Shown here in pieces: positions 13,500 through 22,107 of a DNA stretch of 34,761 nucleotides. Position 1 is the first letter of the stretch. The number at the start of each line of letters is the position of its first letter. Source of the stretch: Candidatus Kaiserbacteria bacterium (GTDB lineage Bacteria > Patescibacteriota > Minisyncoccia > Phycocordibacterales > UBA918); the NCBI GenBank assembly GCA_020428905.1, contig JAGQLY010000007.1:1-34761 (forward strand), read 5' to 3'. Under the pieces are notes generated by a model. It saw nothing but the letters and a program-made list of their open reading frames with translations. It was not told the origin of the DNA and ran no database searches. Both the position numbers and the translations under genes were made by a program.

Positions 13500-13733
13500 T
13501 CAGGAATGACTGCGGTCGCACGCACCAAGTTCTTCTCGAGAAAGTTGTTCAACAAAATCTATGTCACCGTTTGAATCGTAGGTGATTTTATCAACACACC
13601 GTCTGTGGTGTTTGCCATTACATTCAACCACCTCCTCAATACTTTCACCTGTAGGGAGTGTTTCTTTTACTATTTTTTCAATAGTTCGAAATCGTGCTGG
13701 CTTCTCACCTTCGAAACTTGGTATTTTTTCCAT
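13500..13733 (-). CDS. Small acidic protein of unknown function
   Basis: 77 residues starting MEKIPSFEGEKPARFRTIEK and containing a Cys-Asn-Gly-Lys-His-His-Arg-Arg-Cys stretch near residues 39-46. It is not recognised. It is soluble and charged, and two Cys flanking a His pair could bind metal (guess). Support for expression is a TAGAAT -10 box (13740-13745) exactly 6 nt before the ATG, the same leaderless geometry seen in core genes of this window. It lies on the left flank of the large palindrome. It could still be a chance ORF. Confidence 0.45.
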   Translation of the reverse strand: MEKIPSFEGEKPARFRTIEKIVKETLPTGESIEEVVECNGKHHRRCVDKITYDSNGDIDFVEQLSREELGACDRSHS

Positions 13734-13794
13734 ACAAAAATTCTATCACTGAATCATCCGTGTGACATCATAAAGATAGCAATATGCTGTATTT

Positions 13795-14227
13795 GCTCCG
13801 TCTATATGATGAAATCCGAACTTACTTTCAGTCGCGAAGCGACTAACGCTGGCCGCGCGGAGCGCGTGGTGACGCGATACTTCCGCGTACGCATTGGCGT
13901 TCGCGGTAGTGCCCACAACGGCGCAAAGCAATCCCATTGCTTCGCGCCCTTCCGCCTCGTCACCTCGGCGGTACGCCCTCCAGAAAAATCCTTTGCAGTA
14001 TTCCTTTTTCTTTTTTGGCGGGGGATACTTTTTTGGATATGGAAAAGGATTTTTCTGGAGGGCGTACCGCCGGAACGACAGTGGAGGCGGAAGGAGGCGC
14101 GTATCGCATCACCACGCAATCGGAGCGTACGCGGAAGTATCGCGTCACCACGCGCTCCGCGCGTGACCACTTTGATCAATCGCTTCGCGACTGAAAGTAA
14201 GTTCGGATTTCATCATATAGACGGAGC
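13795..14227. repeat. 433-bp interrupted palindrome with three perfect inverted-repeat blocks
   Basis: Three nested exact inverted repeats share one centre near 14011: 48 bp (13795-13842 with 14180-14227), 39 bp (13854-13892 with 14125-14163) and 29 bp (13966-13994 with 14044-14072). The stretches between blocks pair only partly. The right arm also holds two imperfect direct copies of a TATCGC(A/G)TCACCACGC unit. The centre is T-rich. A transcript across it could fold into one very long hairpin. It carries no gene: long open frames over it on both strands come from the symmetry. It could be a MITE-like element, a fold-back element or a recombination target. Confidence 0.85.
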
Positions 14228-14253
14228 CAAACAGAACACCCATCAAATTCTCG

Positions 14254-14380
14254 GTCGCCTACGGCGACAGGGAGCGGAAAATCAGCAAGGATTTTCCACG
14301 GGTTTTGCCAAGAAACGGCAAGCGCCCGATCCCGCAAAAGCGGGTTCAATGTTCTCCGAACATTCTCTGCATTTGCAGAG
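14254..14380. repeat. String of six consecutive perfect hairpins
   Basis: Stem-loops in order: GTCGCC-TAC-GGCGAC (14254-14268); an 8-bp stem at 14276-14283/14290-14297; TTGCC/GGCAA (14305-14321); CCCGC-AAAA-GCGGG (14331-14344); AATGTTC-TCC-GAACATT (14348-14364); CTCTGCA-TT-TGCAGAG (14365-14380). All have short loops and they sit nearly end to end. None has a proper T-run. They lie between the palindrome and a serine recombinase start, so they may be a structured leader RNA or recombination-site DNA. Confidence 0.7.
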
Positions 14381-14441
14381 TGAGCCAATCTTTTTTCTTT
14401 TACTTCGCAAAAGTGAAGCGATAATTTAACCCAAAAGCGAT

Positions 14442-18795: not shown

Positions 18796-20229
18796 ATGGA
18801 TACGAAAAAGAAAACAAAAATAGTCGCAACCATCGGCCCGGCAAGTAGTAGTTCGGATACACTCGTACGTCTTATTAAGAGTGGTATGAATGTTGCACGG
18901 GTAAACTTTTCTCACGGCGATCATACAGAACATCAATCAAAAATACACACTATCCGTAGTGCTGCACGTCGCGTCGGGGCACCAGTAGCACTCCTTGCTG
19001 ACCTTGCGGGCCCTAAGATTCGTACTGGTGATTTTAAAACAGGTCATGTCACTCTCAAGAAAGGCAAGAGGGTGGTCCTCACTACCGCCAAGTGTCTGGG
19101 GACAGCCGAGCGTATGTACGTAAACTATCCTAAATTTGCTGATGAAGTGAAGAAAGGTAACCATATCTTGCTTGATGACGGAAAGGTGCGGCTTGAGGTC
19201 GTAGCAGTATCGGGGGCAGATGTCACATGTATGGTGCGTATTGGTGGCACAATTGCGTCACGGAGAGGAGTGAATGTTCCGGGAGCGTATCTCTCCATTC
19301 CGTCACTTACTGCAAAGGATAAAAAGGATCTTGACTTCATCGCACAAAACAATTTCGCCTATGTGGCACTTTCATTTGTGCGCCGTGCACAAGATATCGA
19401 ACGGTTGCGCCGAGAGCTCGAGGCGCGCAAGTCACGTGCACATATTGTTGCCAAAATAGAGACCCTCGAAGCGGTTGAGAACCTTCCCGCAATCGTAGAG
19501 GCGACAGACGCAGTCATGGTGGCGCGCGGTGACCTTGCCATTGAGGTTAATCATGAAGATGTGCCGCTTCTCCAGAAGCGTATTACTCGTATGTGTAACG
19601 CGTCGGGGAAGCCGGTTATTATTGCGACCCAGATGTTGGAGTCCATGATTACCGCAGCGGTTCCAACACGCGCCGAGGTGAGCGATGTTGCCAATGCTAT
19701 CTATGACGGTGCTGACGCGGTGATGCTTTCGGGAGAAACCGCACTCGGTGAATATCCGGTGGAGGCGGTTGAGTACATGACCCGTGTCGCACAAAAGATA
19801 GAGAACGAATGCACTCATAAAAATCTTGGTGCTGTACTGCAGCCGCGGTCCGAGAGTATTGATATTTATCACACCGTTGATGCAGTGAGTACATCGGTAG
19901 TGAAGATTGCCGAAATGGTAGATGCGAAGGCGATTATTGCCCTCACCGAATCGGGCTTTACGGCGCGTATGGTGTCGCGTTGGCGACCTGAGCAGCCGGT
20001 GTTGGTGATGACGCACGACGATACGGTAGTGCTACAGTCCGCATTGCTCTTTGGTTGTCGTCCAGAAAAGATTCGAAAGTTCACCCACCTGTATCAGGTA
20101 GTTGATACGGTGAAGAAGACGGTACGTGATCTTAAGCTTGCCAAGAAAGATGATAAGGTGGTGATTGCTGCCGGTATTCCGTTTGGGAAGGTGGGTGGCA
20201 CGAACATGGTGCATGTGTTGAAGTTGTAG
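18796..20229 (+). CDS. pyk: Pyruvate kinase
   Basis: 477 residues, the normal length. It transfers phosphate from PEP to ADP in the last step of glycolysis. TKIVATIGPAS and ARVNFSHG are the N-terminal substrate motifs. DLAGPKIRTG contributes to the active site. HIVAKIETLEAVENL carries the K.E catalytic and metal residues, followed by VMVARGDLAIEV and GKPVIIATQMLESMI. The C-terminal regulatory domain (about 355-477) is complete. It begins 22 nt after the hpf terminator with no clear Shine-Dalgarno. Its 3' side faces two minus-strand RNA candidates. The first plus-strand hairpin with a T-run is at 20472-20500, so pyk mRNA may run antisense through RNA 2. Confidence 0.97.
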   Translation: MDTKKKTKIVATIGPASSSSDTLVRLIKSGMNVARVNFSHGDHTEHQSKIHTIRSAARRVGAPVALLADLAGPKIRTGDFKTGHVTLKKGKRVVLTTAKCLGTAERMYVNYPKFADEVKKGNHILLDDGKVRLEVVAVSGADVTCMVRIGGTIASRRGVNVPGAYLSIPSLTAKDKKDLDFIAQNNFAYVALSFVRRAQDIERLRRELEARKSRAHIVAKIETLEAVENLPAIVEATDAVMVARGDLAIEVNHEDVPLLQKRITRMCNASGKPVIIATQMLESMITAAVPTRAEVSDVANAIYDGADAVMLSGETALGEYPVEAVEYMTRVAQKIENECTHKNLGAVLQPRSESIDIYHTVDAVSTSVVKIAEMVDAKAIIALTESGFTARMVSRWRPEQPVLVMTHDDTVVLQSALLFGCRPEKIRKFTHLYQVVDTVKKTVRDLKLAKKDDKVVIAAGIPFGKVGGTNMVHVLKL

Positions 20230-20245
20230 TATTGATACTGGCATG

Positions 20246-20281
20246 AAAAAAGCCCGCGAACACATCCGTGTCTCGGGGCTT
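20246..20281 (-). terminator. Terminator of RNA candidate 2
   Basis: Read on the minus strand: AAGCCC..CGA..ACAC-GGAT-GTGT..TCG..GGGCTT, about 13 bp with two bulges, then TTTTTT and C. On the plus strand the T-run is poor, so it serves the minus strand. Confidence 0.8.
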
Positions 20282-20430
20282 CTGGTTTCGCACACAATCC
20301 CTGTGTGGTAGGCGTGGTGGCCACGATTTCCAAGGTGGTGTCAGGCTTGCACCTTGGAATGTGTGGTGGGTCGTCGGTGAAGGACCTCGGACGACCCACC
20401 ACCAGACGATAATACGACCACCACGCCGAT
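20247..20430 (-). ncRNA. Candidate structured RNA 2 (~184 nt)
   Basis: No ORF on the minus strand fits between a TTGCTA-N17-TATAGT promoter and a T6 terminator. A perfect 10-bp stem (20418-20427 with 20311-20320) encloses two perfect hairpins: 12 bp (20390-20401 with 20364-20375) and 10 bp (20350-20359 with 20328-20337). A CACACA/TGTGTG hairpin (20291-20307) and the terminator follow. This is a three-way-junction architecture. It does not match the layouts of 6S RNA, SRP RNA, RNase P RNA or tmRNA that I can recall. It lies directly downstream of RNA candidate 1, on the same strand. Confidence 0.65.
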
Positions 20431-20434
20431 ACAG

Positions 20435-20463
20435 ACTATAGCACGCACCGGAAAATCTAGCAA
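20435..20463 (-). promoter_or_regulatory. Promoter of RNA candidate 2
   Basis: Minus strand: -35 TTGCTA (20458-20463), 17-nt spacer, -10 TATAGT (20435-20440). The first base of the closing stem (20427) is about 8 nt beyond the -10, where transcription should begin. Confidence 0.7.
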
Positions 20464-20470
20464 TAGGCAT

Positions 20471-20662
20471 AAAAAACCCGCGCGGAAGGCGGGTTTTTGT
20501 TTTGACGGCTGTGCGCCGGAGTGGTTTCTTCGAGACATTCCGGGCGCTGATACCCGGAGTTGTTTGGCAGTTCACCACAACCACTCCGGCGCTGCCGGTA
20601 ACGCCCCCCAAGAGACACGGTGGTACTCTACAGCCAGTTCCCATCGGGAGGGGGAGCGTTAC
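20471..20662 (-). ncRNA. Candidate structured RNA 1 (~190 nt)
   Basis: Minus strand, downstream of fmt. A 12-bp stem with one bulge (20650-20662 with 20598-20609) forms the 5' domain. A perfect 14-bp stem (20579-20592 with 20513-20526) forms the 3' domain and encloses a TCCGGG/CCCGGA hairpin (20539-20558). A 10-bp terminator stem with T6 ends it. The 5' domain starts at the expected start site of a TTGACG-N16-TAGCAT promoter. No ORF is convincing. No known RNA family is recognised. It could also be a structured 3' UTR of fmt, but the promoter overlapping the fmt stop argues for a separate unit. Confidence 0.6.
20472..20500. terminator. Bidirectional terminator between the two RNA candidates
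   Basis: A 10-bp stem AAAAACCCGC (20472-20481) and GCGGGTTTTT (20489-20498). It has T-runs on both strands (TTTTTGTTTT on plus, TTTTTT on minus). It ends RNA 1 and probably also pyk transcripts. Confidence 0.85.
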
Positions 20663-20668
20663 AAACCA

Positions 20669-20696
20669 ATGCTACCACCGCCACATCTGGCGTCAA
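20669..20696 (-). promoter_or_regulatory. Promoter of RNA candidate 1, overlapping the fmt stop
   Basis: Minus strand: -35 TTGACG (20691-20696), 16-nt spacer, -10 TAGCAT (20669-20674). The -35 sits on the last codons of fmt. The -10 is only a fair match. Confidence 0.5.
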
Positions 20697-21574
20697 GTGC
20701 TCTTGGGACGAGCCCAGTCTGTGTAGTCCATTTCCTTTTTTCCTTCGGGGATGACTCGGAGAATCTGAAGTGAGCCATCTGTAGCGAGCTCTGCGTTGGT
20801 AATTTTGATGCGTACTTGCCGGGAACCTTTTTCTGTAAAGAAAAAGGTTCCCGGCCATCCGTCGTACGCACGAATCTTAAGAAGATTCTGGTAGGGGTCA
20901 TCGTCCAAATTGATTTCACCGTCAGCACGGGTGATTTTGGCACAGTATGTCGCAGCACCGTGGTCTTGTTCTTGTGGCGCTATGTCGCCACCTATCCAGA
21001 GCGGAATCGTGCGTGCGAGGAGTGCACCGCCGTGGCGTGCAAGGTGTTCGTCGAGTACATTTCCTGGAATGGGCCATTCTGTTTCGGCTATCGCGGCATG
21101 CTCTTGTGCGAGAATGGGTCCATGGTCCATCTCTTCGTCCATAAGCATGATGGTGACGCCGGTGTCCCGGTCGTCGTTAAGGATTGCCGAACGTATCGGA
21201 CTTGCGCCGCGATAGTGGGGGAGGAGGGAGGGGTGCACATTGAGAACACCGTGCGTCGGAATATCTAAAAATGTTTTGGGGACGATCTTGCCATAGGCGG
21301 CAACAATGAACAGATTAAAACCTTCTATGGAGAGACGTTCGGCGAGGCCCGAATCGCGAAGCGATTCGGGCTGCAGTACCGGAATATGTCGCTCTTCTCC
21401 CCACACCTTCACCGGCGGCGGGGTAAGGACATTTTTGCGTCCTTGTGGTGCGTCAGGGTTGGTAACGAGAAGTGCTGGTACAATGCCTGCGTGTTCTAGC
21501 TCCTCAAGTACCCACACAGCTATCTGTGGCGTACCAAAAAACGCTACCTTCAGTGGCTTATGTGTTGTGTTCAT
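20693..21574 (-). CDS. fmt: Methionyl-tRNA formyltransferase
   Basis: 293 residues, slightly shorter than the usual ~310. It formylates initiator Met-tRNA using 10-formyl-THF. KVAFFGTPQIAVWVLEEL opens the Rossmann core. AAYGKIVP and NVHPSLLPHYRGASPI carry the catalytic Asn and His, and TGVTIMLMDEEMDHGPIL the catalytic Asp. A reduced C-terminal OB-like domain with YDGWPGTFF follows. The ATG overlaps the def stop by 4 nt (ATGA), so the two are translationally coupled. Formylation here implies that leaderless mRNAs are started with fMet in the normal way. A perfect 11-bp hairpin lies inside the coding sequence at 21347-21371. Confidence 0.97.
   Translation of the reverse strand: MNTTHKPLKVAFFGTPQIAVWVLEELEHAGIVPALLVTNPDAPQGRKNVLTPPPVKVWGEERHIPVLQPESLRDSGLAERLSIEGFNLFIVAAYGKIVPKTFLDIPTHGVLNVHPSLLPHYRGASPIRSAILNDDRDTGVTIMLMDEEMDHGPILAQEHAAIAETEWPIPGNVLDEHLARHGGALLARTIPLWIGGDIAPQEQDHGAATYCAKITRADGEINLDDDPYQNLLKIRAYDGWPGTFFFTEKGSRQVRIKITNAELATDGSLQILRVIPEGKKEMDYTDWARPKST
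21347..21371. repeat. Perfect 11-bp hairpin inside fmt
   Basis: GCCCGAATCGC (21347-21357), loop GAA, GCGATTCGGGC (21361-21371). Its core TCGCGAAGCGA also occurs in the outer arms of the large palindrome (13832-13842). It encodes part of the SLRDSGLAERLS segment, so it may be a dispersed palindromic motif tolerated in a surface loop. Confidence 0.5.
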
Positions 21575-22107
21575 TCTGCTTCGCGAAGATTATGTTGTTC
21601 GATTTCGTCGTGTCGCCACAGCTTGACGGCACGATCGACAAAGAGTGTGCCATCAAGGTGATCAACCTCATGTTGGAAAATTTGTGCAAGCAGTCCTCCG
21701 GCACCGCGTTCGTATTCATTTCCGTGTTCGTCATACGCACGGATAGTTGCATTCTTCGCACGCTCAACGGCGCCATAACGTTCGGGTACCGAGAGGCATC
21801 CTTCGCCGACGACCGCATGCTTCTTGGAGAGTTTGATGATTTGCGGATTGATTGCAACAATATCGGGTAGCGCGTCTTTTGGATCACGCGTAGTGCTGGT
21901 ATCGTGTACTAAAAAGATACGAAGCGCTACGCCTATTTGCGGCGCAGCAATAGCGACACCAGTGAACCCATCGACTTCGTATGACAAAAGCGCCTGGCGC
22001 ATATCCTTAAGCACCTTCTGTATTTTGGGTGAGGTAATATCTTCGATCGGCACCTCCTCGGCTATTTGGTGGAGCGCTGGGTGTTTTTCTTCGACGAGCT
22101 TTGCCAT
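21571..22107 (-). CDS. def: Peptide deformylase
   Basis: 178 residues, normal length. It is a metal-dependent enzyme that removes the formyl group from nascent N-termini. All three motifs are present: GVAIAAPQIG (motif 1, G.G.AAPQ type with Val-Ala), GEGCLSVPE (motif 2, Cys ligand) and QHEVDHLDG (motif 3, two His ligands and catalytic Glu). A TATAGT box (22120-22125) lies 12 nt before the ATG with no Shine-Dalgarno. It is followed by fmt with a 4-nt overlap, the classical priA-def-fmt order. Confidence 0.97.
   Translation of the reverse strand: MAKLVEEKHPALHQIAEEVPIEDITSPKIQKVLKDMRQALLSYEVDGFTGVAIAAPQIGVALRIFLVHDTSTTRDPKDALPDIVAINPQIIKLSKKHAVVGEGCLSVPERYGAVERAKNATIRAYDEHGNEYERGAGGLLAQIFQHEVDHLDGTLFVDRAVKLWRHDEIEQHNLREAE

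Follow-up and report, generated by a model that had tools for sequence, protein, structure and literature searches.

Identification of a candidate small RNA gene between pyk and fmt

The gap that separates the genes for pyruvate kinase (pyk) and methionyl-tRNA formyltransferase (fmt) may well contain, on its minus strand at positions 20430-20247, an independent small RNA gene that is specific to this lineage, and we give this reading an even chance. A promoter, a strongly folded three-way junction and an intrinsic terminator follow each other here in the proper order and on the same strand, and the convergent pyk gene lacks a terminator of its own ahead of this region; all of these elements can be read from the sequence. 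Small RNAs of the reduced and uncultured Paceibacterota are little known, and a literature search yielded nothing that bears on them directly. A candidate that adjoins a central energy gene, pyruvate kinase, and that has exact promoter and terminator bounds therefore offers a testable starting point.

All coordinates refer to the window, the whole stretch of 34,761 nucleotides that was analysed, which represents one contig (C32) of a genome of 668,765 bp that is 94% complete. This genome was retrieved as stretches, of which adjacent ones share ~300 bases, and long ORFs were taken as gene calls. The candidate is located in a 463-bp gap between pyk (18796-20229, plus strand) and the convergent fmt gene (20693-21574, minus strand), which has def (21571-22107) upstream of it. 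With this length the gap ranks fourth among the 107 convergent gaps of the genome, the median being 60 bp, and of the six longest ones the second contains the tmRNA (L148) and the sixth a tRNA (L137). The closest pyruvate kinases, including one from a Candidatus Paceibacterota MAG, show ~52% identity to the protein encoded here. Perfect hairpins of 17 and 11 bp are present within the fmt coding sequence (20818-20855 and 21347-21371), and an ORF at 13605-14429 that has no Pfam match contains an inverted repeat (13966-14072) whose arms match perfectly over 29 bp and enclose a loop of 49 bases.

Promoter, predicted start site and terminators

The first-pass annotation of this DNA had placed a TTGCTA-N17-TATAGT promoter ahead of the structured region. 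This promoter is indeed present on the minus strand at 20463-20435, with the -35 hexamer at 20458-20463, the -10 hexamer at 20435-20440 and a TG just upstream of the latter (extended -10), and it scores 11.8 bits with a generic sigma-70 matrix entered from general knowledge. Sites reaching at least 11 to 11.5 bits are found at a frequency of 0.11 to 0.16 per kb per strand (0.11 for at least 11.5 bits), and the best scores in the regions upstream of the tRNA, 5S and tmRNA genes of this genome have a median of 7.9 and a 90th percentile of 12.0. Transcription is predicted to start 5 to 8 bases past the -10 hexamer, at 20427-20430, where the closing stem of the junction begins with its first pair, as had been proposed. 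Across the genome, stems located at promoter start sites were not enriched (3, versus 7 to 11 at shifted offsets).

The T6 terminator that was expected at the other end of the unit was located on the minus strand at 20283-20247, where a bulged hairpin (-17.6 kcal/mol; z -4.4) precedes the T tract. It ends 18 bases beyond the pyk stop codon. The only plus-strand intrinsic terminator found in the pyk-fmt gap is the bidirectional one at 20472-20498, which is common to pyk on the plus strand and to the fmt side on the minus strand, in agreement with the earlier view that pyk has no good terminator before 20498. As no plus-strand terminator occurs earlier in the gap, read-through from pyk to 20498, and thus a pyk mRNA that crosses the candidate, is to be expected.

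Fold of the candidate RNA

The minus-strand segment 20247-20430 has a calculated folding energy of -91.9 kcal/mol (z -6.5), which was matched by none of 200 shuffled sequences. At its core is a three-way junction of 117 nt (20311-20427), whose closing stem, formed by GGCGTGGTGG (20311-20320) and CCACCACGCC (20418-20427), is perfect over 10 bp, exactly as first described. On the minus strand this stem reaches 13 bp by addition of U-G, C-G and G-U pairs, two of them being G-U pairs. Arm 1 (20363-20402) consists of 13 perfect base pairs (20363-20375/20390-20402) rather than the 12 originally reported, whereas the 10 bp given for arm 2 (20328-20359) are correct (20328-20337/20350-20359, with a 12-base loop). 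A small hairpin of 6 bp (20291-20307) lies between the junction and the terminator. Pair probabilities were near 1.0 over most of the length of the three junction stems. The junction alone has z values of -5.9 on the minus strand and -6.1 on the plus strand; its stems fold equally well on both strands, and folding is therefore silent on which strand would be transcribed. The idea of a self-contained minus-strand RNA unit finds support in the agreement of promoter, structure and terminator in strand and position.

A sister unit, designated candidate 1, precedes the candidate on the same strand (20662-20471). Its layout is the same: a TTGACG-N16-TAGCAT promoter (20696-20669) is followed by a 12-bp stem, whose first base is the predicted start, and then by another three-way junction and the shared bidirectional terminator. 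The fold of this unit has a z value of -4.7. A further minus-strand unit that starts beyond the terminator at 20472 would account for the presence of another terminator downstream on this strand. No convincing sequence homology between the candidate and the sister unit was found, and when the covariance model of the candidate was searched against its own genome, the best other match was a weak one (E 1.4) to the sister junction on the opposite strand. It is highly unlikely that the two tandem units (20662-20471 and 20430-20247) are relatives within a new class of three-way-junction RNAs that is limited to this Paceibacterota lineage and in which each RNA starts exactly at its closing stem.

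Genome-wide frequency of comparable structures and units

Perfect three-way junctions with stems of at least 10 bp throughout were found twice in the genome and never in three shuffled genomes. The other one (L133:19394-19553) is larger and intergenic, has stems of 17, 16 and 15 bp and is situated near a contig end. At looser limits, 14 nested junctions were counted, versus 0.7 in shuffles. Perfect inverted repeats are in general abundant. Convergent gaps contain 4.3 of them per kb, which is 90 times the number expected by chance, and tandem gaps 2.2, divergent gaps 1.35 and genes 0.24, compared with 0.05 in shuffled sequence; loci taken from relatives are overall about as rich in such repeats. 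One palindrome, CATCATGAAGTTGRACCTATAGGTYCAACTTCATGATGG, occurs in two copies on different contigs (approximately L118:150-190 and L128:380-425). In a GC-corrected scan of 703 intergenic windows the candidate ranked 46th, 45 windows folding more strongly. Together with the abundance of inverted repeats, this makes strong folding by itself weak evidence for an RNA gene, and the surplus of perfect nested repeats in this genome advises the same caution for these bacteria more widely.

As a positive control, we screened the genome for units in which a promoter of at least 9 bits is followed at a distance of 60-350 nt by a terminator, on one strand and within a single intergenic gap. This screen returned 20 units, 7 of which contain tRNAs that were independently found by Rfam, and in the ranking by promoter score the candidate took the 4th and the sister unit, delimited there as 20662-20476, the 7th place. 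This result and the unusual length of the gap raise the probability that the candidate is an RNA gene. Beyond the candidate, the screen supplied a few more orphan RNA candidates, namely the intergenic units without Rfam match at L144:18242-18326 (+), L144:5922-5766 (-) and L149:7971-7871 (-).

Conservation and related sequences

The candidate was not matched by any covariance model of Rfam (release 15) at the gathering score, and the weak sub-threshold matches fell on the terminator at 20472-20498, on the sister unit or on the opposite strand. A 241-bp DNA query matched only itself among 99 genomes. Likewise, a covariance model of the junction, which is insensitive to distant relatives because it was built from one sequence, recovered only the candidate itself in 49 genomes of the family and 397 genomes of the order. 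Homologues with co-varying stems were thus absent from the genomes covered by either search, and the conservation that the first-pass annotation had suggested looking for with such a model was not seen. When the whole gap was compared with the 397 genomes by BLAST, matches were obtained in 40 other genomes and were almost exclusively to the common terminator hairpin at 20472-20498, the remainder being stretches of 20-24 bases outside the candidate junction or matches at chance level. The suggested inspection of synteny was equally negative: in relatives, no conserved RNA lies beside pyk or fmt, the content of the gap differs, and fmt or pyk is followed by a short gap, often with one long terminator hairpin. 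The nearest relatives share only ~50-60% of the pyk and fmt residues. At such distances a fast-evolving RNA would be unrecognisable, and the lack of detectable homologues does not disprove its existence.

Several other readings of the site were considered and rejected. The ORFs at 20644-20132 and 20402-20094 have no Pfam match. RNase P RNA, SRP RNA and tmRNA were dismissed because neither a family match nor signature motifs were found, the tmRNA being located elsewhere. The candidate is single-copy in the genome, unlike a mobile or dispersed repeat of the REP or MITE type; no match pointed to a phage or plasmid origin, and the tandem repeats of CRISPR- or TIGR-like arrays do not occur at the site. 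As a separate observation, RNase P RNA (RF00010) was detected in 19 of 21 genomes searched, this genome not being among them, and SRP RNA (RF00169) was above the cut-off in none of the 21.

Alternative explanations

A possible, though less probable, explanation is that the stems belong to the pyk 3' UTR as part of the hairpin-rich 3' ends that convergent genes possess here, where they would protect RNA ends or serve as back-up terminators, and that the promoter match is fortuitous. This would fit with the concentration of inverted repeats in convergent compared to divergent gaps and shuffled sequence, with the long bidirectional terminators that follow fmt or pyk in relatives, and with the fact that the plus strand folds equally well. 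However, what is found in the relatives is one short terminator hairpin and not a gap of 463 bp, and the junction is bounded on the minus strand by a strong promoter at one end and a separate T6 terminator at the other. We regard it as unlikely that the structure is simply a mutational product, made of nested inverted duplications that arose, for example, by template switching during replication, and devoid of any RNA function. Template switching in replication has been reported to generate perfect RNA hairpins (PMC8794818). The sequence GTGGTGG(G)TCGT recurs, nearly unchanged, in the 5' arm of the closing stem and in the 5' strand of arm 1, so that the junction looks as if it had been assembled by copying one short unit in inverted and direct orientation. 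Moreover, nested repeats are frequent in this genome (see the counts above), some of them lie inside genes such as fmt and the ORF at 13605-14429, and those at L137:10841-11063, beside a tRNA gene, copy the 3' end of that tRNA (GATTCTTCTCACCCGCACAG). Yet a mutational product leaves the strong and correctly placed promoter and terminator unexplained. It also does not account for the fact that convergent gaps contain the repeats at a much higher density than do divergent gaps or genes, an unevenness which indicates that their placement is not random. Template switching could nonetheless explain how the stems arose, and such an origin is compatible with their later use in an RNA gene.

It appears extremely unlikely that the candidate binds to RNA polymerase as a diverged form of 6S RNA. 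Its length of ~180 nt, the closing stem, an open strand (UAUUAUCGUC), the hairpins and the presence of its own promoter are in line with such a role. In addition, Rfam 6S RNA was above the cut-off neither in this genome nor in 40 relatives, which implies that the role is either vacant or filled by an unrecognised RNA. Nevertheless, RF00013 gave the candidate no score even at lax thresholds, the 3' side of the junction forms a 10-bp hairpin instead of an open bubble, and the candidate is absent from all relatives searched.

Possible effect on pyk

If the candidate is indeed a small RNA gene, its extended -10 promoter would initiate transcription at ~20428, the closing stem of the three-way junction would sequester the RNA 5' end, and transcription would stop at the 20247 intrinsic terminator, giving rise to a stable RNA of ~180 nt. 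With pyk transcription continuing to 20498, this RNA would be complementary to the pyk mRNA tail along its whole length. That the unit is transcribed, that its product is stable, and that it would pair with pyk mRNA or act on pyk in any way are inferences. The most likely effect would be a local one, in which either the transcription complexes collide or loop-to-loop pairing is followed by RNase III cleavage, so that the pyk mRNA tail would be trimmed or destabilised. RNase III is encoded in the genome and no match to Hfq was found in it, which suits a cis mode of action rather than an Hfq-dependent one. An action in trans was also considered and rejected, seed and loop matches to mRNA start regions being no better than those of shuffled or random seeds. 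The earlier suggestion that the RNA may be antisense to the pyk 3' UTR agrees with the overlap that is expected from the missing pyk terminator, and regulation in cis would be a further step. Altogether, we consider it unlikely that the candidate RNA affects pyk.

Comparison with known systems

Like 6S RNA (Rfam RF00013), the candidate would have a length near 180 nt and a 5' end that is engaged in a long closing stem. In place of the bubble and one apical stem of 6S RNA, however, it has a three-way junction from which two long and perfectly paired arms extend. With bidirectional intrinsic terminators it shares the convergent setting and the perfect GC-rich hairpins, and one such terminator is in fact present at 20472-20498. 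In contrast to these elements, the junction hairpins have no T tails; only the hairpin at 20283-20247 is followed by one, on the minus strand.

Antisense RNAs that are encoded in cis to the 3' UTR of a convergent neighbouring gene form a general class. The candidate departs from this class in that it stops short of the pyk coding region and lacks conservation. On the other hand, the independent promoter on the opposite strand by which cis-antisense RNAs are recognised has a sequence match here. Like these RNAs, the candidate combines a predicted promoter and terminator of its own with a position on the opposite strand and strong stem-loops, and it would be fully complementary to the expected mRNA tail of its neighbour.
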